Assembly (NCBI GenBank): GCA_003551785.1
Contig: PUNP01000633.1
Coordinates: 1-9,082, forward strand
From: Candidatus Brocadiaceae bacterium
GTDB taxonomy: Bacteria; Planctomycetota; Brocadiia; SM23-32
Direction: 5' to 3'
DNA length: 9,082 bases
Translations under genes and position numbers: made by a program
In this document: positions 1 through 9,078 of the stretch, one piece after another
Position numbering within the stretch: position 1 is the stretch's first letter
Layout of the letters: every line of letters starts with the position of its first letter
Notes under the pieces: generated by a model
Databases searched by the model: none
What the model was told of the DNA's origin: nothing
The model's input: the letters and a program-made list of their open reading frames with translations, nothing else

Positions 1-1592
1 ATGCGCTTGTTGATGGAGAGAGAAATTCACAGCAGTTGTGCGTATCCAATGAATCCACCCTTGACGCAATGGTCGAGAAAACACGTCAATATTTCAGTGC
101 AAATTCCCAAAGTCGATGGATCACGATGGGGACCCATCGCGGTTCTCATTGCGAGTGTGACGGCTGTGAGGCGCTCGACCCGCAAAAAGGGGGATATGGG
201 CCTTTTACCGGCGGTCGCAATGTGACCGATCGCTATATTTATTTTTATAACAGGGTGCTGGCGGAGATTGAAGATGAGTTTCCTGACCGACGGATATCTT
301 TGCAGATGGTGTCTCCCCATGTATTGCCCCCGGTGAATCAACGTGGCAAGCCGAATCTCGATGTTATAGTTTGGACCAACGGTTACTGCCGTATTCATGG
401 TGCCGGCAACCCGAATTGCCCTGAAAGGATGATGGTCTCGCGACGCACCGCGCGCTGGGTGGACAAACTTGAAGGCCGATATTATGAGCGCACGTCATGG
501 GGCAATGTTGCCGGTCCCGGTTTTATATTCCCCCTCGTCCACCGCTATAGAAAAGAGTTGCCCGAATATTACCGCCACGGCGTTCAGGGATTCAGAATCG
601 CATCATACAGCAACTGGGTGAGTGAGAATCCCTCAGCTTTTATAGGTGCACGTCTGCTGTGGGACCACGATGCCCACGTCGATTCACTGCTTGAGGAGTT
701 TTATGGTAACTTTTACGGTCCCGCCGAGATTCCTATGCGTCGTTATCACGAATTAATAGAGCATACCGCCGAAAACGCCGATTACCACACGGGCACTGCG
801 ATCGATATGCCGCACATTTACCCGGCAAAAGTGCGCAAAAAAGCCAGTGAATATCTTGATGAAGCGTTCGAGCTTGTAGAACCCGAAAATATATTTCACA
901 GCAGAATCTCGAAGGTGCGACTCGCGCTTGATTATCTTGAGGCCTTCGTTGAAATGCAGGAGTTGAAGAACCGCCACGACTACTCCGGTGCGGTCCAAGC
1001 TCTTGACCGTGCCCTTTCACTCAATAAAAGTCTGAGTGAAGATTACGAATTTCCACTGCTCATGAACCGCAGTGCAAATTACCTTAAGCGTTTTTTTGGA
1101 AATACACTCAGGGAAGCCTATCAACGCACTGAAATCGAAGGCGAACTCGTTGTGGGGATGGATGACGTCTGGGAGTTCCTGATCGACCCGGATAAAATTG
1201 GAGAGGATATGGCGTATCACAGTCCGGAAACAACCGGCGGTAACTGGCGGGACATTAAATCATGGAGTTCCTCGTGGAGTAATGAGGGGTTGCGATATTA
1301 TCGAGGCGATGCATGGTATCGTCAACATGTTCAAATGCCGGACGGATTACGGAATCGGACTGTCAAGCTTTGGGTTGGTGGCGTTGATGAGCGAGCCAGA
1401 GTATGGGTCAACGGACAGAAGCTCGGAGACAGCCCCGTTGGGGCATTTCGTCCTTTCGAGTTTGATGCGACCGGAGCGGTCCGGCCGGGGGAGAACAATT
1501 TAGTTGTCATCCGGGTGGGTAACCATCAAACTCAGGAGGTAGGTACCGGCGGACTGCTGGCGCCGGTGTTTTTTTATACACCGGTTGAATAG
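1..1592 (+). CDS. DUF4838 domain-containing protein, 3' part (5' end outside window)
   Basis: The reading frame is open from position 3 to the stop at 1590-1592 (529 residues) with no start needed inside the window. The residues before the first possible start (TTG at 36) already read like family sequence (QQLCVSNEST), so the gene is truncated by the window edge. DUF4838 proteins are large, mostly exported proteins of polysaccharide-degrading bacteria, related in layout to alpha-glucuronidases; their reaction is not established. Visible here are a C-x-C-x2-C cluster encoded at 150-167, the segment WTNGYCRIHG at about 376-405, and Trp/Tyr-rich barrel-like sequence up to about 700. A helical region follows (about 700-1130). 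The end (about 1290-1590) is a beta-sandwich like the GH2 sugar-binding domain, with VKLWVGGVDERARVWVNGQ and PGENNLVVIRV. It lies 84 bp upstream of the next start and could share a transcript with it. The family call is from recalled motifs, not a search. Confidence 0.8.
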   Translation, partial: ALVDGERNSQQLCVSNESTLDAMVEKTRQYFSANSQSRWITMGTHRGSHCECDGCEALDPQKGGYGPFTGGRNVTDRYIYFYNRVLAEIEDEFPDRRISLQMVSPHVLPPVNQRGKPNLDVIVWTNGYCRIHGAGNPNCPERMMVSRRTARWVDKLEGRYYERTSWGNVAGPGFIFPLVHRYRKELPEYYRHGVQGFRIASYSNWVSENPSAFIGARLLWDHDAHVDSLLEEFYGNFYGPAEIPMRRYHELIEHTAENADYHTGTAIDMPHIYPAKVRKKASEYLDEAFELVEPENIFHSRISKVRLALDYLEAFVEMQELKNRHDYSGAVQALDRALSLNKSLSEDYEFPLLMNRSANYLKRFFGNTLREAYQRTEIEGELVVGMDDVWEFLIDPDKIGEDMAYHSPETTGGNWRDIKSWSSSWSNEGLRYYRGDAWYRQHVQMPDGLRNRTVKLWVGGVDERARVWVNGQKLGDSPVGAFRPFEFDATGAVRPGENNLVVIRVGNHQTQEVGTGGLLAPVFFYTPVE

Positions 1593-1663: not shown

Positions 1664-1669
1664 GAGGAG
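1664..1669 (+). promoter_or_regulatory. Strong Shine-Dalgarno site deciding the 1677 start
   Basis: GAGGAG lies 7 nt before the ATG at 1677. This is the best ribosome-binding site in the window, and it favours 1677 over the in-frame ATG at 1659, which would place the site inside the coding region. The large protein beginning near 2032 has no comparable site, which suggests that 1677 was the original start of that gene. Confidence 0.65.
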
Positions 1670-1676
1670 ATTAAGC

Positions 1677-1841
1677 ATGATTTGTGAAAAAAAAGGAAGA
1701 TCAAAGAAAACAGGTGTTTTGACATCCGCATGTCTGATAGCTTTCCTGATAATGCTCCAGGCGGGGCTTGCCGTCGCATTAATCTCGGCGTTACGCGTTA
1801 CAGCGCCGACAGGCGCCCCGTTTTCAGAGCGACGTCTCTGA
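1677..1841 (+). CDS. Short signal-peptide-like ORF, probably the severed N-terminus of the large downstream protein
   Basis: This 54-residue ORF starts at an ATG behind a strong GAGGAG site. Residues 1-12 are basic (MICEKKGRSKKT). A hydrophobic run of about 22 residues follows (about 14-35), ending in AGLAVA, an acceptable signal peptidase I-type boundary. The last part (about residue 38 on) is encoded by the palindromic cluster starting near 1788 and ends at a TGA inside a perfect hairpin, so it is unlikely to be native protein sequence. The simplest reading is that this was the secretion signal of the 1380-residue protein downstream, which lacks one, and that inserted DNA shifted the frame and separated them. 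The signal frame (1677, 0 modulo 3) and the large frame (2032, 1 modulo 3) differ, and stops intervene. The alternative is an independent small membrane peptide. No family is recognised. Confidence 0.45.
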   Translation: MICEKKGRSKKTGVLTSACLIAFLIMLQAGLAVALISALRVTAPTGAPFSERRL

Positions 1842-1856
1842 AAATGCGTAGGCGCT
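1788..1856. repeat. Palindromic repeat cluster, left part (two hairpins)
   Basis: A tandem 7-mer GCGTTAC (1788-1794 and 1795-1801) precedes a GCGCC/GGCGC hairpin with a 4-nt loop (1803-1816). Next comes a perfect 9-bp stem TTTTCAGAG/CTCTGAAAA with a 6-nt loop (1821-1844). AGCGCC (1802-1807) can alternatively pair with GGCGCT (1851-1856) and enclose the second hairpin. Such density of hairpins is typical of REP-like extragenic palindromes or remnants of small mobile elements. The copy number elsewhere in the genome is unknown. Confidence 0.6.
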
Positions 1857-1861
1857 TAGAT

Positions 1862-2010
1862 AGGATTTAACTGCACCATCTCCGAAAAGGTTGCAACAGG
1901 TTCGTAGTGTGCCCTTTTAAGGGCACCAGAGTCCGAAAATTGCTACGCACACCCTGGGACGCTTGAAACCGTCCACTACGAGCCGGGTTTTCGGAGAGGA
2001 TTTAACTGCA
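1862..2010. mobile_element. MITE-like nested inverted repeat flanked by a 14-bp direct repeat
   Basis: The 14-mer AGGATTTAACTGCA occurs perfectly at 1862-1875 and again at 1997-2010. Between the copies lies a nested palindrome. Its outer arms are CTCCGAAAA (1880-1888) and TTTTCGGAG (1988-1996), next TCGTAGTG (1902-1909) and CACTACGA (1974-1981), and then the compact hairpin GTGCCCTT/AAGGGCAC (1909-1926). A second TCCGAAAA lies at 1932-1939. The right outer arm abuts its direct repeat exactly; the left is offset by 4 bp (CCAT). The layout fits a non-autonomous insertion with target duplication, or a repeat-mediated duplication. No transposase is present. The repeats are seen directly; the mobile-element reading is inference. 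Confidence 0.5.
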
Positions 2011-2031
2011 ATTTGGAGACTGAATTTGATA

Positions 2032-5000
2032 ATGAATACTTTTTTTGAAGAAAAAGAGAGAGCATGGTGGAATGATAAGTGGACGTATCGTACAAGCGTT
2101 GTCAGACCGAGCCCGTGGGATATGGATGGAGAGGTACCGGTTGAGGCTGCTGTGGATTTCCCGAAACTCCTGGATGAAGCAGGGGGGAAAGAACGTTTCG
2201 ATCCGTGTTCGGTAAGGGTCGTATGGCCCGGACAAAATGGAAAAAAGCCATGCGAAGTTCCCGCCGTATTGCGGGAGGAATATGATGTGCATAGTAACCG
2301 CAAGCTGCAATATGTTGCATGGAAAGCGAAGGTGGAAGCAGGGATGGCCGGGATTTACGATATCTATTTCGATGTCCGGGAAAAAGGAATACCGCAGTCC
2401 GTATCCGCAGTTGAGCCGCCGCCTGATAACATCATTGATAACCCGAGGTTTCGATCCGATGGAAGCGGCGCTCCCGGGGGGTGGGAACTGGACGGAGACG
2501 GTGCAGTTTATTTCAGATGTGAAGGTGAAGACGCCAAAAACGTCGGCATGTGTATAATGCGCAGCGGAAAAGATACGACCAGACTGCAGAAGGCGGCTGC
2601 CGTGCGCCAGCGGTTGGATGTGCGCGGCTATGCAGGTGTGCCGGTGCTTTTTGAAGCCGACCTGCTCGCCCGAACGGGACTGCTCGGAAAGCCCGTAACC
2701 GTGGAAATCGAACAATACAGGGAAGACGGGAGCCGCATAATGGAATATGCCGTGGACCCGCGATGGCTTACGATCGAGCTGGCCGAAGGGCACGAGGTGA
2801 GGTTTTCCGAGCGTGGACGGTTGAATCCGGAGGCCGCTGAGGTGGTTGTGCAATTCAGATTCTGGCTGGATGTAGAAGAAAGCTGTTTTGGGAAAAAGCC
2901 TGATCCTGCGGAACTGGCCGCTGAAATACTGCTTGACCGCGTGCTTCTGCGTCCGGGCGAACTCTGGCCGTGGCCCGCGGCTTCCGACGGTATGTTCGCC
3001 GAGGGGGCTTTGGAGAAAGCGCCGTTTAACAGGTCCATAGCCCTGACGGATAAGAGACGTTTTGCTTTTACTGGCGCTTCGGCCGGTACTATATCAAAAG
3101 GCAGCCTTAATCCCGACCGGCGGTCTGTCCACTGGGGCCCCGTTCGAGGTACGATGGAATTTTACGTTAAATCTCTCTGGAATTGGGATGACGGACTGGA
3201 GCACCTGTTTTTTGAGGGCGTTTCCAGGGGCAGAGATGTCAATGGACAGCAGTCAAGTTTGCGGAAGTGCGGGGCGGAGGATGATAATATGCTGACGTTC
3301 AGCATTGCTGACTCTTCGCGCAGGGTACATACCGTAGCGGGCAGAGCGGAGTTTCAAAAGGGATGCTGGCATCACCTGGCGGTCACGTGGGACCATCCCG
3401 AAGGGCGTCTGCAACTTTTTTTCGACGGACGTAAAATCGCTGACGAATCCGGAAATGCGCCATGGCCTTCAACAGATGATCCGCTGGACCCCGAAATATC
3501 AGAAGGAGTCGGCATAGCTCCCGGTGACCGGCGCAGTATTCCTATGCAGCTTGTATTCGGCGGCGATCTTATGTTTGAAAGAGATTCTGCCAGGGTTTAC
3601 ATGGATGAACTGCGTATATCGGATATTGTGCGGTATTCAGGGGATTTCGAGCCTGAATTGCGGGAATATGAACTTGACGAACATACCAGAGCGTTGTTTC
3701 ATTTCGAGAATACCTGTCGGGGCACCCATTACGGTGACGACCGGGTTATAGAGGTTTTTCACACCCATCCTGAGCAACCCCTGCGGGAGACCGCTCCTCT
3801 GGAGCGCATAGAAGGGGGGAAGCTATATTCTGAGAGCGTTTCGGTGGCTCCTTATGCCAGGGATGAGTTATTTGAGAAAAATCGAGCGGGTAATAATACC
3901 GACAGAAAGTTGCCGGAAACGCTTCATCCGGACCCCCGTTTTGTTGAATACCGGCCGTGTTATTGCCGACGCATAGTTTCCGATACGAGTGAGCAGCCGG
4001 CTTTGGAGGTAAAAGGAGACCTGTCCCCGCTGATGCGGTGGGAAGCTTTCAGCCGTGCAGAAGACGATGATGCAGGGGATACAAAGGTGCCGCGATGGCG
4101 TGCCAATGACAATGTCGTGCCTTTTACCTATGAAAGTCTGTGCAATACACTTGCCCCTGGTGTAAGAGACGACACTGAATTGGCCGAAAAAGTGTTCAGT
4201 TACTGTATGGATGTTACCCGTTATTTCAACGCAAGTATGATAGGTGAGGAGATTTATGGCCGGCCCCTGCCGGTGCGCTATCACCTGATCCGCATGCTCA
4301 ACATTTACTATTCACATCAGTGTGGCCCTCTGAACTATCCCCTGCGTAAGCTTTTTATTCTGAAAGGGATATCTTCCAACGATTATGTGGGAACGGGACA
4401 TCAGTACCAGCAGGCTCACTTCAAAGGCGGCTGGCGGCTGTTCGACATGTCGAAACGGCTGTACTGGCTGGACAGAGATAATGAGTCGATCATCGGCGTT
4501 CGGGACGTACATGAAGACCCCTGGCTTATGGTTCGGGATTCCGGCAATCATAAAGCGTTTATACCCGGGAGGCCTCATTCCGCCCGGTTCCCGGACAACC
4601 CGCAGCCGTACTTTGATAAAGCGCCGAGTCTGAATGAATATCGTTATCCTCTAAAACCCCGGGTACCTCATCGCATCGAAATGAAGCTCCGCGGCGGCGA
4701 AAAGGTGTGGATGGGCTGGCATAATGAAGGCCTCTGGATGCGCAGAAACCGAAAAGGCCGGCCGCTGCATCCCGGTTTCGTGCCTCCCGCCTACGGCAAC
4801 GGTGCTGTCAGCTATGAATTAGTGAAAGATGGAGGGGCGGCAAATTTGACGAATTTTGATTTCCATACAACCGCCTACGGGGGGTTTTTAACACCGGCAG
4901 GTAACGGAAATGCGGAACTGCGTTATAGTATGCTTTGTCCTTACGTGCTGGCAGGGCTTCTGATAAATGGAAGCTGGGAAGGTGTCCCCAAAGGAAAACT

Positions 5001-6174
5001 TTCAATAAGTCTCAGTATCGACGGGGGCGCGAATTTCGAGAGTGTATGGTGCAATGATTCGGAAAGCGGGGATATTGATCTCGATATCTCCGACCGGATA
5101 GCCGGCCGCTATGATTATGTGCTGCGGCTAAAGGCGGACGCAGGATGTGAAACGGGCCGCATCGAGGGGCTTCACATCCGCAGTCCGTTCGTCTGTTCAC
5201 ACCTCTCGCTTCCTGGACGGCTCAAAAGGGGACGGAACCGGATTGAAATGGTGGGTGGGCCGGTGGAAAAGCCGGTAACGGCCGAGCTCGCCTGGACCGA
5301 GCGTCATTTGAGCAAACTCGGCATTCAGATGCCCGGACTCTCCTATTACGATCCGGCCGGAGATTATCACAGGAATCTTCTGATAGTTAAACCCGGCGAA
5401 CGGCGCAAGCTCGATGTGGAGCTGCTCGGCCGGAAGATGAGCGGAACAGTTACTCTCGAGGGCCTTCCAGAAAGTTGGCTGCAAGGCCCCGCAGAGATAG
5501 AAACTGTCAAGAAAGAAGGAGAAAGCGCCGGTGTGTCATTTGATATACAAGTGCCGGATATGCCCGAAGGTGAGATGCGATCGTTCAAGGTGAGGGTCAA
5601 TGACGGTTCTGTAGAACCGCGCCTGGCTGAGGGAATTCTCTTAATCGGTCGAACTGCTCTGGTGCGCGGGGCCGAAGATGCACCGATTAAGGATGGGAAT
5701 CTGGAAATACGTAAGGATGCAGCTTTGCACGGTGGGGCAAAGGTGCAATTTAACGGCAGCGGTAAATTAGGGTTTAATTTGAAAGCGCCTGAAAAAGGGC
5801 GATACGCCGCCTGGCTGCGCATGCGTCGCATAAAAGATACCGAAAATGCATTGACCCTCAGGGTTGGTGATCAGGCCGGACGCAGGATTAACCTGCATTT
5901 GAAACCCTGTGATTGGGGAAATTCGGAAAGGGCGAACACAAAAATGACCAGTTACGAGAGGAACCTCCCCGATAAAGGCACTTCGCACTGGGGCTGGTAT
6001 CGAATAGCCGATATCGAATTAGATGCCGAGGCTGAGGAGTCTATGGTTGTTGAGGCCGAAGAAGGTATGGAACTGGATGCGCTGGCCGTCGTGCCGCAGA
6101 CGGAGGAAATGGGCCTGGCCATGATGAATCTTACTCAAAACTGGAACTTTATGCCCTGGGATCGCCCCTTTTAA
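2032..6174 (+). CDS. Large multidomain protein with LamG and transglutaminase-like core (putative glycan-associated)
   Basis: From ATG 2032 this is 1380 residues. In-frame TTG codons at 2026 (GGAG 7 nt upstream, at 2015-2018) and at 1963 are alternative starts, but 1963 lies in repeat DNA. No start gives a signal peptide. Domains, numbered from 2032: residues 12-105, a Trp-rich beta domain opening WWNDKWTYR, like DUF2341-type domains; about 130-330, a carbohydrate-binding-like beta region; about 364-537, a LamG/concanavalin-like lectin domain (WHHLAVTWD, LQLFFDGRKI, VYMDELRISD); about 700-810, a transglutaminase-like core with candidate triad Cys764 (HQCGPLNY), His790 (GTGHQYQ) and Asp805 (GGWRLFDMSK); about 870-1080, beta-rich; about 1113-1205, Ig/NEW3-like; about 1225-1375, a possible CBM-like sandwich. 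The family suggests cleavage or cross-linking at thioester or amide bonds, but the substrate is unknown. It probably once used the secretion signal at 1677. The gene is intact over its length. Confidence 0.8.
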   Translation: MNTFFEEKERAWWNDKWTYRTSVVRPSPWDMDGEVPVEAAVDFPKLLDEAGGKERFDPCSVRVVWPGQNGKKPCEVPAVLREEYDVHSNRKLQYVAWKAKVEAGMAGIYDIYFDVREKGIPQSVSAVEPPPDNIIDNPRFRSDGSGAPGGWELDGDGAVYFRCEGEDAKNVGMCIMRSGKDTTRLQKAAAVRQRLDVRGYAGVPVLFEADLLARTGLLGKPVTVEIEQYREDGSRIMEYAVDPRWLTIELAEGHEVRFSERGRLNPEAAEVVVQFRFWLDVEESCFGKKPDPAELAAEILLDRVLLRPGELWPWPAASDGMFAEGALEKAPFNRSIALTDKRRFAFTGASAGTISKGSLNPDRRSVHWGPVRGTMEFYVKSLWNWDDGLEHLFFEGVSRGRDVNGQQSSLRKCGAEDDNMLTFSIADSSRRVHTVAGRAEFQKGCWHHLAVTWDHPEGRLQLFFDGRKIADESGNAPWPSTDDPLDPEISEGVGIAPGDRRSIPMQLVFGGDLMFERDSARVYMDELRISDIVRYSGDFEPELREYELDEHTRALFHFENTCRGTHYGDDRVIEVFHTHPEQPLRETAPLERIEGGKLYSESVSVAPYARDELFEKNRAGNNTDRKLPETLHPDPRFVEYRPCYCRRIVSDTSEQPALEVKGDLSPLMRWEAFSRAEDDDAGDTKVPRWRANDNVVPFTYESLCNTLAPGVRDDTELAEKVFSYCMDVTRYFNASMIGEEIYGRPLPVRYHLIRMLNIYYSHQCGPLNYPLRKLFILKGISSNDYVGTGHQYQQAHFKGGWRLFDMSKRLYWLDRDNESIIGVRDVHEDPWLMVRDSGNHKAFIPGRPHSARFPDNPQPYFDKAPSLNEYRYPLKPRVPHRIEMKLRGGEKVWMGWHNEGLWMRRNRKGRPLHPGFVPPAYGNGAVSYELVKDGGAANLTNFDFHTTAYGGFLTPAGNGNAELRYSMLCPYVLAGLLINGSWEGVPKGKLSISLSIDGGANFESVWCNDSESGDIDLDISDRIAGRYDYVLRLKADAGCETGRIEGLHIRSPFVCSHLSLPGRLKRGRNRIEMVGGPVEKPVTAELAWTERHLSKLGIQMPGLSYYDPAGDYHRNLLIVKPGERRKLDVELLGRKMSGTVTLEGLPESWLQGPAEIETVKKEGESAGVSFDIQVPDMPEGEMRSFKVRVNDGSVEPRLAEGILLIGRTALVRGAEDAPIKDGNLEIRKDAALHGGAKVQFNGSGKLGFNLKAPEKGRYAAWLRMRRIKDTENALTLRVGDQAGRRINLHLKPCDWGNSERANTKMTSYERNLPDKGTSHWGWYRIADIELDAEAEESMVVEAEEGMELDALAVVPQTEEMGLAMMNLTQNWNFMPWDRPF

Positions 6175-6350: not shown

Positions 6351-7688
6351 ATGGATAAGCCCAAAAAACGTTATGCTCAGGTAGGCTTAGGAGGGCGTTC
6401 GAGAATGTTTCGTAACGCTATAGTTGACAATTTCTCTTACAACAGCGAGATTGTGGGATTATGTGACCTTAATCAAGGGCGCCTGAAATTGGCGCAAGAA
6501 GACCTGTCAGAAGAAGGCTATGATGTCCCTGGTTATTTACATGATGATTTTGACAAGATGGTAAAAGAAACTCGGCCGGATTGCATAATAGTCACCGTTA
6601 AAGATTGCCATCATGATGATTATATTTGCCGTGCTATGGAACTTGGATGTGACGTTATAACTGAAAAACCCATGACAACTGATGCCGAAAAATGTAAAAA
6701 AATCCTGGCGACAAAAGAAAAGACCGGCAGAAAGGTGACGGTTACTTTCAATTATCGTTATGCTCCTCCCAGAACACAGGTAAAAGACCTTTTAATGTCA
6801 GGCTTAATCGGTGAAATACTTTCAGTTGATTTTCATTGGATGCTAGATACACGTCACGGCGCCGATTATTATCGAAGGTGGCATCGCAATAAGGTTAACT
6901 CAGGTGGTTTGCTGGTTCATAAAGCAACCCATCACTTCGATCTCGTTAATTGGTGGCTTTCCACCATTCCCCAAAGCGTCTATGTTTCAGGACACCGAAG
7001 ATTTTATACTCCTTCAACAGCTGATAATGTGTATGGACTGAAAAACCGTACTGAAAGGTGTCATACATGCCCGGAAAGCGAAAAATGTCCATTCTGCCTG
7101 GATTTAGCTGCGAATGAACGTCTAAAGAAACTTTATCTGGATTGTGAAAAACATGACGGCTATTTCCGTGATCGCTGTGTATTTGCCGAAGATATCGACA
7201 TTGAAGATTCTATGAACGTAGTCGTTGATTACGAAAACGGTGCAAAATTAACCTATTCCTTGAATTCGTTCAGCCCCTGGGAAGGGTATCTCATTGCCTT
7301 TAACGGCACCCGGGGACGACTGGAGCATAAGTGTCAGGAAAAGGTGTATATCAATGCAGACGGTACAGTCCCGGGAGCTTTGGAAAAAGATGGAACCAAT
7401 ATTCATATTTTCCCCCAAAGAGAAGCCGCCTACGAAGTGGAGGTGTGGACCGGTGAAGGCGGGCATGGGGGGGCCGACCCCGTGATGCTGTCTTACATCT
7501 TTGATCCCGATTCACAGGAGGAGGACAAGTATCTGCGCGCTGCCGATGAACGCTCCGGTTCCTATTCCATACTCACCGGTGTTGCAGGTAATAAATCCAT
7601 AGAAACGGGACAGCCCGTCAAAATTTCCGACCTGGTCAGCAATGTGGGTATGCCCGATTATCCGGAAATGCCTAAGGAAACATGTTGA
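6351..7688 (+). CDS. Gfo/Idh/MocA family oxidoreductase with Cys-rich insert
   Basis: This is a 445-residue NAD(P)-dependent dehydrogenase-type protein, probably oxidising or reducing a sugar, sugar acid or cyclitol in the cytoplasm. The N-terminal Rossmann fold shows VGLGGRS at residues 11-17. The family EKP motif is at 105-107. The substrate-domain segment SGGLLVHKATHHFD (184-197) supplies candidate active-site residues Lys191, His194 and Asp197. Residues 237-249 carry C-x2-C-x5-C-x2-C, with further Cys265 and Cys276, so this is a subfamily with a putative metal-binding insert. The end (GGHGGADP, then ETGQPVKISDL) is typical and complete. ATG 6351 is chosen because the Rossmann strand follows at once; an in-frame TTG at 6336 is possible, and the ribosome-binding site is weak. 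It has its own promoter at 6218. The 5' half is more AT-rich than the 3' half. The exact substrate cannot be read from the sequence. Confidence 0.9.
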   Translation: MDKPKKRYAQVGLGGRSRMFRNAIVDNFSYNSEIVGLCDLNQGRLKLAQEDLSEEGYDVPGYLHDDFDKMVKETRPDCIIVTVKDCHHDDYICRAMELGCDVITEKPMTTDAEKCKKILATKEKTGRKVTVTFNYRYAPPRTQVKDLLMSGLIGEILSVDFHWMLDTRHGADYYRRWHRNKVNSGGLLVHKATHHFDLVNWWLSTIPQSVYVSGHRRFYTPSTADNVYGLKNRTERCHTCPESEKCPFCLDLAANERLKKLYLDCEKHDGYFRDRCVFAEDIDIEDSMNVVVDYENGAKLTYSLNSFSPWEGYLIAFNGTRGRLEHKCQEKVYINADGTVPGALEKDGTNIHIFPQREAAYEVEVWTGEGGHGGADPVMLSYIFDPDSQEEDKYLRAADERSGSYSILTGVAGNKSIETGQPVKISDLVSNVGMPDYPEMPKETC

Positions 7689-7788: not shown

Positions 7789-9078
7789 ATGACTAAATTC
7801 ACAGCAGTCGGGGATTATCTGGTGCAACGCCGGTTCCCGGGTGAATACAGCGGCTTTGCCGCTGTAAGAGAGTTTGTCAGAAAAGGTGATATGCGTTTTT
7901 TTAACCTTGAAACCACTCTTCATAGTGGAGACTGTTTTGCCTCTCAACATTCAGGCGGCTCATGGCTCCGGGCCGATCCCGAAGTCCTGGAGGAAGCGAA
8001 AAACTTCGGATTTAACATCGTGTCCTTTGCCAACAACCACACCATGGATTTCTCCTACGACGGCTTGAAAAAAACACTCGATGCAGTGAACGAATCGGGT
8101 TTGCCGAATGCAGGAGTGGGACTGAATCTGGCCGAAGCATCCGCTCCGGCCTATCTGGATACACTCGCCGGTCGGATAGCCCTGATCAGCGTCGTGTCTT
8201 CCTTGAAACCACAATCGATGGCCGGTGAGCAGTCACGACGCATTATTGGCCGGCCGGGGGTCAACGGCCTGCGCACAGAAGAAAAATATCTGGTGACCCG
8301 GGAACAGATGAAGTTCATCAAACAGCTTGCTGAACAGACAGGCATGAATTCCGGGTTAGATATATCCCGTGCCGAAGGATATTTGCCTGAACTGCCTGAG
8401 GGAGTATTTAAACTCAAGAACATCCTTTTTGAAGTTAGTGAAGAAACAAAAAGGATTATCTCTGTCAATGAAAAGGACATGCAGCGGATCGAAAAAACGA
8501 TCTATGATGCACAGCTCCAGGCGGATTATATCGTCGTTTCGCTTCACGCGCATGCCGTGAAGGGGGAAAACAAAGAAACCCCGGATGATTTCATTAAAGA
8601 CTTCGCCCGCCGCTCCATCGATCATGGCGCCCATGCTGTTATCGGGCACGGCCCCCACCTCCTGCGCCCCATCGAAATATACAAAAGGCGCCCGATCTTC
8701 TATTCGCTCGGCGATTTTGTGCTCCATATCGAGAATGTTCCGTTCGCCCCCGAAGATTTTTATCTGAAGTATGGCCTGAATTCCGATGATACTATGCATG
8801 ACCTGTTCAAGAAACGATCCGCTGATTTCACGCGCGGCCTTCAGACTCAACCTGAAATGTTTGAGACGGTCATTCCCTATTGGGAGATGCAGGACGGCGT
8901 TCTGCAAAAGCTTGAATTGCTACCAGTCGAATTGGGGTTTGGGATGCCTCGTTCACAAAGCGGATGGCCGAGACCGGCGAAGAATCTTGATTTTGTCAGA
9001 CGGCTTTGCGAGATGTCCGCCCCGTATGGCACGGATATGAATATCGATAACGGTATTGTGAAAGTGAAGGTAAAATGA
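7789..9078 (+). CDS. CapA/PGA_cap-family protein (metallophosphatase-like fold)
   Basis: This complete 429-residue protein starts at ATG 7789, with AAAGAG (7777-7782) 6 nt upstream. Conserved family blocks appear in order: GD at residues 8-9, FNLETTL with Asn39 and Glu41, ANNHTMD with Asn82, Asn83 and His84, SLHAHAVKGE with His253 and His255, IGHGPHLLRPIE with His287 and His290, and FYSLGDF at 304-310. These match the calcineurin-like metal-binding layout of PGA_cap proteins, named after CapA of poly-gamma-glutamate capsule synthesis; most members have other or unknown roles. The usual HWG-type motif appears here as HAHA. The protein begins directly in the catalytic fold with no signal peptide or membrane anchor, so a cytoplasmic location is likely and a capsule role doubtful. 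No capsule ligase genes (capB, capC) are in view. A downstream ATG overlaps its stop, suggesting translational coupling. Confidence 0.85.
   Translation: MTKFTAVGDYLVQRRFPGEYSGFAAVREFVRKGDMRFFNLETTLHSGDCFASQHSGGSWLRADPEVLEEAKNFGFNIVSFANNHTMDFSYDGLKKTLDAVNESGLPNAGVGLNLAEASAPAYLDTLAGRIALISVVSSLKPQSMAGEQSRRIIGRPGVNGLRTEEKYLVTREQMKFIKQLAEQTGMNSGLDISRAEGYLPELPEGVFKLKNILFEVSEETKRIISVNEKDMQRIEKTIYDAQLQADYIVVSLHAHAVKGENKETPDDFIKDFARRSIDHGAHAVIGHGPHLLRPIEIYKRRPIFYSLGDFVLHIENVPFAPEDFYLKYGLNSDDTMHDLFKKRSADFTRGLQTQPEMFETVIPYWEMQDGVLQKLELLPVELGFGMPRSQSGWPRPAKNLDFVRRLCEMSAPYGTDMNIDNGIVKVKVK

Follow-up and report, generated by a model that had tools for sequence, protein, structure and literature searches.

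A palindromic leader with a signal-peptide-like reading frame ahead of a large unsignalled LamG protein gene in a Candidatus Brocadiaceae bacterium

The leader and the start of the large gene

The window of 9082 nucleotides (nt) analyzed here, from contig PUNP01000633.1 of a Candidatus Brocadiaceae bacterium, carries on its + strand, in this order, a DUF4838 gene, the region that is the subject of this work, a gene for a large LamG protein, a Gfo/Idh/MocA oxidoreductase gene and a gene for a PGA_cap protein (Table 1). The region of interest contains a short open reading frame (ORF) with a signal-peptide-like N-terminus and a stretch of palindromic DNA, and behind it begins the large gene, the product of which (hereinafter P0001) has no export signal. 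An earlier note on this DNA had read the arrangement as a secretion signal severed from the large protein by the palindromes, either freshly or in a switchable manner. The comparisons described below suggest that the repeats probably did not sever the signal of the large gene.

The short ORF encodes 54 amino acids (aa), or 60 aa if counted from ATG 1659, and its N-terminus, MICEKKGRSKKTGVLTSACLIAFLIMLQAGLAVA, consists of a basic n-region, a hydrophobic core and a c-region ending in AVA. A filtered scan of both strands of the window identified it as the sole signal-like ORF preceded by a Shine-Dalgarno site. Among 2000 dinucleotide shuffles of the region 1593-2031, such a combination appeared in 7 at a hydropathy of at least 2.5 and in 2 at a hydropathy of at least 3.0, and the strong Shine-Dalgarno site and signal-peptide-like N-terminus described in the earlier note are thus above chance. 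Two further claims of that note hold as well: the signal frame ends within a hairpin, the stop codon lying inside its 3' arm, and the signal and mature frames differ (modulo 3, position 1677 is in frame 0 and position 2032 in frame 1). A protein search that depends on shared five-residue words returned only the window's own copy of this ORF; a match to MerT in NCBIfam (E 0.047) was taken as a chance effect of hydrophobicity. Most likely, the ORF is what is left of the 5' end of a different exported gene, truncated by the repeats; that it encodes a small membrane peptide is less likely.

The large gene probably has a start of its own behind the repeats. Both TTG 2026 and ATG 2032 are in frame with it, they are preceded by a GGAG site, and the stretch 2013-2031 ahead of ATG 2032 is AT-rich (GC 0.316). 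In the alignment, this ATG coincides with the starts called for P0002 and P0003, the two closest homologues: the distance from the initial Met to a common aligned tryptophan is 11, 12 and 11 residues in P0001, P0002 and P0003, respectively. The residues at the start are not conserved among the three proteins (MNTFF, MNSDA and MRQSE). A Met that keeps its position while the surrounding residues vary is indicative of a start codon rather than a chance internal Met. The view that the large gene is served only by weak initiation sites was, accordingly, too strong, given the GGAG site and the agreement with the starts of the relatives.

Table 1. Coordinates of the features of the window around the signal-like ORF and the palindromic stretch
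Feature	Positions	Strand	Basis
DUF4838 / glycosidase-like gene, 5' end cut by the window edge	3-1592	+	Pfam
GAGGAG Shine-Dalgarno-like site, 7 nt before ATG 1677	1664-1669	+	sequence
54-aa orphan ORF with signal-peptide-like N-terminus	1677-1841	+	KD10 3.12; shuffles; protein search
Hairpin with 6-bp stem TCGGCG/CGCCGA	1785-1809	no strand	sequence, predicted fold
Long hairpin, inner stem TTTTCAGAG/CTCTGAAAA, holds the stop codon (1839-1841) of the 54-aa ORF	1811-1857	no strand	predicted fold
Left copy of 14-nt exact direct repeat AGGATTTAACTGCA	1862-1875	+	0/2000 shuffles
Composite palindromic element (~120 nt) with 10-bp terminal inverted repeats (1879-1888 / 1988-1997)	1879-1997	no strand	
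GTAG-tagged hairpin, REP-like, 8-bp stem	1904-1926	+	sequence scan
Second GTAG-tagged hairpin, inverted, 5-bp stem, head-to-head with the first	1957-1979	-	sequence scan
Right copy of the 14-nt exact direct repeat	1997-2010	+	0/2000 shuffles
GGAG, spaced 7 nt from TTG 2026 and 13 nt from ATG 2032	2015-2018	+	sequence
1380-aa LamG / CBM-like protein without signal	2032-6174	+	Pfam Laminin_G_3, E 3.7e-8; homologues

Export signals in the family and in the closest relatives

The homologue set comprises 38 proteins including P0001, and a signal was recorded in the 37 others (P0002 and P0003 counted among them) when a hydrophobic leader was present within the first 45 residues. Such a leader was found in 33 of the 37. 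The four proteins without it are P0002, P0003, P0022 and P0038; the called start of P0022 falls inside the signal shown by its near kin P0015, and P0038 is a protein of 993 aa with 62% coverage. At the level of genomic DNA, every one of the 19 loci for which the N-terminus was read encodes a signal-like leader immediately followed by the W..RT motif (15 loci, namely L042-L050, L061, L071, L072 and L086-L088, together with L031, L051, L096 and L098; L061 encodes the same protein as P0010, at zero tree distance). More distant relatives, with 22-28% identity, possess a leader at most 60 residues from the first Met in 17 of 19 cases; for L036 and L075, which belong to these relatives, the first Met of the open frame is possibly not the true start. 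The impression of the earlier note that the large protein looks exported thus holds in so far as its family is normally exported, and the 33 proteins and 19 loci also display the architecture which that note had anticipated for orthologues, with a similar signal joined directly to a sequence resembling ERAWWNDKW. Because the signal is found in nearly all of the wider family and in the distant relatives, export looks ancestral in this family, as judged from sequence comparison.

The closest homologues of the window protein, P0002 (55% identity) and P0003 (53%), both lack a signal, and all three called proteins of this small group are without a hydrophobic leader. In two trees, of 48 and 50 rows, P0001, P0002 and P0003 are set apart from the other rows by a branch with a Shimodaira-Hasegawa-like approximate likelihood ratio test (SH-aLRT) support of 100, and in a 23-row tree the same group receives 100/100 and is recovered in 100% of 200 bootstrap trees. 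Two rows of the latter tree, L025 and L097, are in a wrong reading frame, have very long branches and carry no weight; L097 is a C-terminal piece that does not include the N-terminus. All trees are unrooted and drawn with midpoints. The genomes searched for group members were, by phylum, 288 for G002, 251 for G001, 40 for G007, 294 for G586 and 337 for G006 (listed handles from the draw of G002), and, further, 193 and then 345 from the class of G002, 17 from its order, 197 from the class of G006, and 7 + 7 handles. The sole recognizable group member in these genomes is a C-terminal piece of 259 aa in G002, which is located where a contig ends and is 89% identical to P0003. Viral contigs contained no relative of the large protein.

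In addition to the Pfam match, a structure model of residues 560-1100 (mean predicted local distance difference test score, pLDDT, 69.8), when compared with Foldseek, retrieved beta-sandwiches of the carbohydrate-binding module (CBM) families CBM35 and CBM6 at E ~1e-4 with low TM-scores, along with other beta-sandwich proteins, and the family profile weakly matched CBM35-type chains (E 0.014-0.042). These fold and profile matches fit, short of proof, a carbohydrate-binding protein of a normally exported type. Three residues of the large protein, C764, H790 and D805, are invariant in a 29-row alignment; their arrangement is reminiscent of a transglutaminase-like triad, and the Foldseek search did not show such a fold. 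The cysteines 209, 279, 379, 579, 737, 895 and 1086 (P0001 numbering) are conserved in most of the family and missing in all three unsignalled proteins, and cysteines 285, 725 and 1055 are common to these three. An argument from cysteine loss was dropped because several of the seven are also missing in some signal-bearing relatives. The overall cysteine content, which was tried as an indicator of location, does not set the group apart (1.10-1.38% as against a mean of 1.06, standard deviation 0.22, n = 33).

The palindromic stretch

The palindromic stretch consists of two local hairpins and, between the direct repeats, a composite element at approximately 1876-1999. The statement that everything from 1788 to 2010 is palindromic is correct to the extent that this DNA is largely palindromic; the stretch, however, begins near 1785 and is made up of these separate elements rather than of one palindrome. 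The single strand 1770-2035 has a predicted folding energy of -92.1 kcal/mol, compared to a shuffle mean of -76.5 (z -3.58), and none of 200 shuffles folded as well. A head-to-head pair of GTAG-tagged hairpins with GTAG on the outside occurred in 1 of 5000 shuffles, and no further pair of this kind was found elsewhere in the window. Provided that 2026 or 2032 is the true start, the pair is located between the unidirectional DUF4838 and LamG genes.

These features are best compared with GTAG-tagged repetitive extragenic palindromic (REP) sequences, in particular with their head-to-head pairs, known as REPINs. A survey of such sequences gives the head-to-head dimer as a layout of two inverted GTAG repeats, lists the Planctomycetes-Verrucomicrobia-Chlamydiae (PVC) group among the hosts, and holds that many REPs located at the NH2 terminus of an ORF may be extragenic, the actual translation start being further downstream (Di Nocera et al. 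2013, PMC3733652). As in the dimers described there, the hairpins of the window are opposite in orientation, with GTAG outside and stems of 8 and 5 bp; they are 30 nt apart, have unlike stems, as in a heterodimer, and would, under the proviso given above, lie between unidirectional genes. Unlike these dimers, the pair in the window is nested in a longer inverted repeat between 14-nt direct repeats, and one of the loops is 8 nt long. The likeness concerns the layout, many copies per genome and a RAYT (tyrosine transposase) being further marks of GTAG REP dimers. A broader resemblance exists to the Rickettsia palindromic elements and intragenic REPs, in which palindromic DNA likewise occupies the N-terminal end of a gene or its vicinity; those elements, according to the same source, encode amino acids inside ORFs, whereas the repeats in the window contain stop codons and are out of frame (PMC3733652). 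Also unlike the Rickettsia elements, the repeats of the window precede a start codon the position of which is shared by the closest relatives. We regard the case as for the most part unremarkable: REP-type repeats that occupy a leader, next to a loss of the signal in a small group.

The search for further copies produced little. No match of the repeats was found in plasmids and phages; viral contigs gave one 17-nt match to the repeat, judged by eye to be due to chance, and none to the GTAG arm; 72 loci gave matches of 14-17 nt only; and in the order of G002, five of 17 genomes gave a total of seven short matches, with no convincing copy. Five of these seven were inspected by eye, and each lies within an open frame of 231-675 aa with no palindrome at the site. 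A Pfam scan of the five ORFs of the window revealed no RAYT among them. By their type, the repeats are presumably mobile or multi-copy. With respect to other known elements, no Rfam family matched the window at the gathering score, which speaks against an intron or riboswitch, and a group I or group II intron was rejected because no intron family model matched; in the region 1590-2080, the sole Rfam match was a sub-threshold one to a microRNA family (E 0.74). The promoter and terminator scan returned results at the chance level.

Origin of the arrangement and neighbouring genes

The explanation that we consider probable, with a substantial share left to others, is that the group of P0001, P0002 and P0003 lost its export signal long ago, and that the palindromes and the orphan ORF lie in an upstream leader. 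Under this scenario, the N-terminal signal would have been lost once in the group; the gene in the window would use a start of its own, at 2032 (or TTG 2026), and yield a protein without a Sec signal that is probably cytosolic; the region 1593-2031 would be the leader between the DUF4838 gene and the large gene; and this leader would have gathered REP-type palindromes, namely the head-to-head GTAG pair within the longer inverted and direct repeats, and the two hairpins. The near-universal presence of the signal outside the group maps the loss to the stem of the group, and, given that the two nearest homologues, at 53-55% identity, are unsignalled and have an aligned start, the loss appears to be older than such divergence. 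An older, group-wide loss does not need an inserted palindrome as its explanation: one old loss accounts for all three proteins, whereas a fresh insertion in the window accounts for only one. The anatomy, the grouping and the distribution of signals, which are missing from the three called proteins and present in nearly all of the wider family, are direct observations; the age of the signal loss, the cytosolic location and the origin of the short ORF are inferred.

Several observations weigh against this explanation. An intact Shine-Dalgarno site and signal ORF exactly upstream of a gene from a signal-bearing family is a strong coincidence, as the shuffles indicate (7/2000), and the intactness of the 54-aa ORF, the strongest point in favor of a recent event, suggests something recent or selected. 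For P0002 and P0003, the starts are those called automatically in the database. Since the trees are unrooted, the direction of the change, a loss within the group, rests on the signal-bearing distant relatives, which are absent from the trees, and in one of the SH-aLRT trees the branch of the group itself carries the midpoint. The multi-copy status of the repeats is unsupported, with no convincing copy in the 17 genomes, the 72 loci, plasmids, phages or viral contigs. Finally, cysteine content gave no independent measure of the location of the protein.

The most serious competitor, which we nevertheless find unlikely, is a recent severing, whereby the signal at 1677 was formerly in frame with the large gene and was cut off by the insertion of the palindromes, so that the protein is now cytosolic or silent. 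The direct junction of signal and mature part in almost all homologues and in all loci would agree with such an event, as would the signal ORF itself, which is intact, orphan and rightly placed, and the palindromes, which start a few codons past the likely cleavage site. This scenario, however, requires that the signals of P0002 and P0003 were lost independently or that their starts are miscalled, that is, as many as three separate losses where a single one would suffice. The two closest homologues are unsignalled and grouped with the window protein, the start positions coincide, and the ribosome-binding site and start are located after the repeats. The fresh disruption proposed in the earlier note is thus disfavored. 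A literature search limited to titles and the beginnings of abstracts returned nothing on a signal peptide severed by REP DNA.

A functional role of the short ORF, as a leader peptide or small membrane peptide, seems rather improbable. Ribosomes translating the 54-aa ORF would enter the hairpin 1811-1857 and thereby control how the leader folds and how translation is initiated at 2026/2032; the good Shine-Dalgarno site and the hydrophobic segment, both above chance, the stop codon inside the hairpin and the strong structure of the leader are all compatible with this role, whereas the failure of the protein search to yield a homologue sharing five-residue words, and of Rfam to yield anything beyond the sub-threshold match, argues against it. 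It is highly improbable that, in this group, the export signal became a short ORF of its own upstream of a structured leader and is maintained by selection, such that translating it would recruit the mRNA to the membrane or gate the synthesis of the large protein.

We give next to no credence to the switchable secretion element of the earlier note, in which excision or bypassing of the palindromic segment fuses the signal with the mature protein in a fraction of the population, despite the structured DNA between direct repeats, the different frames and one 8-nt repeat pair in a register compatible with joining: loss across the 14-nt direct repeat removes 135 nt, keeps the phase and does not reach the stop at 1839, so that this excision would not join the frames; the other suitably placed repeats are at most 8 nt long, and joining-register repeats of this length appear in 210 of 2000 shuffles; no intron was found at the Rfam gathering score; and the unsignalled relatives make a switch unnecessary. 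Programmed ribosome bypassing in gene 60 of phage T4 spans a gap of ~50 nt. The window resembles that system in having a structured non-coding gap between two frames, and differs from it in that the gap, at ~250 nt, is much longer, in that it has no supported take-off and landing pair, the one candidate being the 8-nt in-register repeat, of a kind seen in 210 of 2000 shuffles, and in that the relatives start after the gap; bypassing as a mechanism seems improbable.

With the old, group-wide loss as the preferred explanation, the case shows that a palindromic leader combined with a signal-like ORF can pass for a secretion gene that has been severed or is switchable, and that telling such a mimic from the real thing requires the starts of near relatives to be compared. 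Should the group be truly cytosolic, a large family of polysaccharide-binding type would have moved from the outside to the inside of the cell, which is mildly interesting; should the severing be recent, REP-type repeats would have disrupted yet another gene.

The DUF4838 gene upstream of the leader also matches a GH2 sugar-binding domain (Pfam E 3.7e-26 for DUF4838 and 2.6e-11 for the sugar-binding domain). Downstream of the large gene, the Gfo/Idh/MocA oxidoreductase is encoded at 6351-7688 (8000 homologues scored), followed at 7789-9078 by the PGA_cap-type protein (Pfam E 5e-56), which by eye has no signal-like start. In the PVC-group genome G002, at locus L002 (865-3213), a DUF4838 gene (Pfam E 9e-31) with an N-terminus that is signal-peptide-like by eye follows the C-terminal piece nearest to P0003, so that the pairing of a DUF4838 gene with the large gene recurs there in the reverse order.

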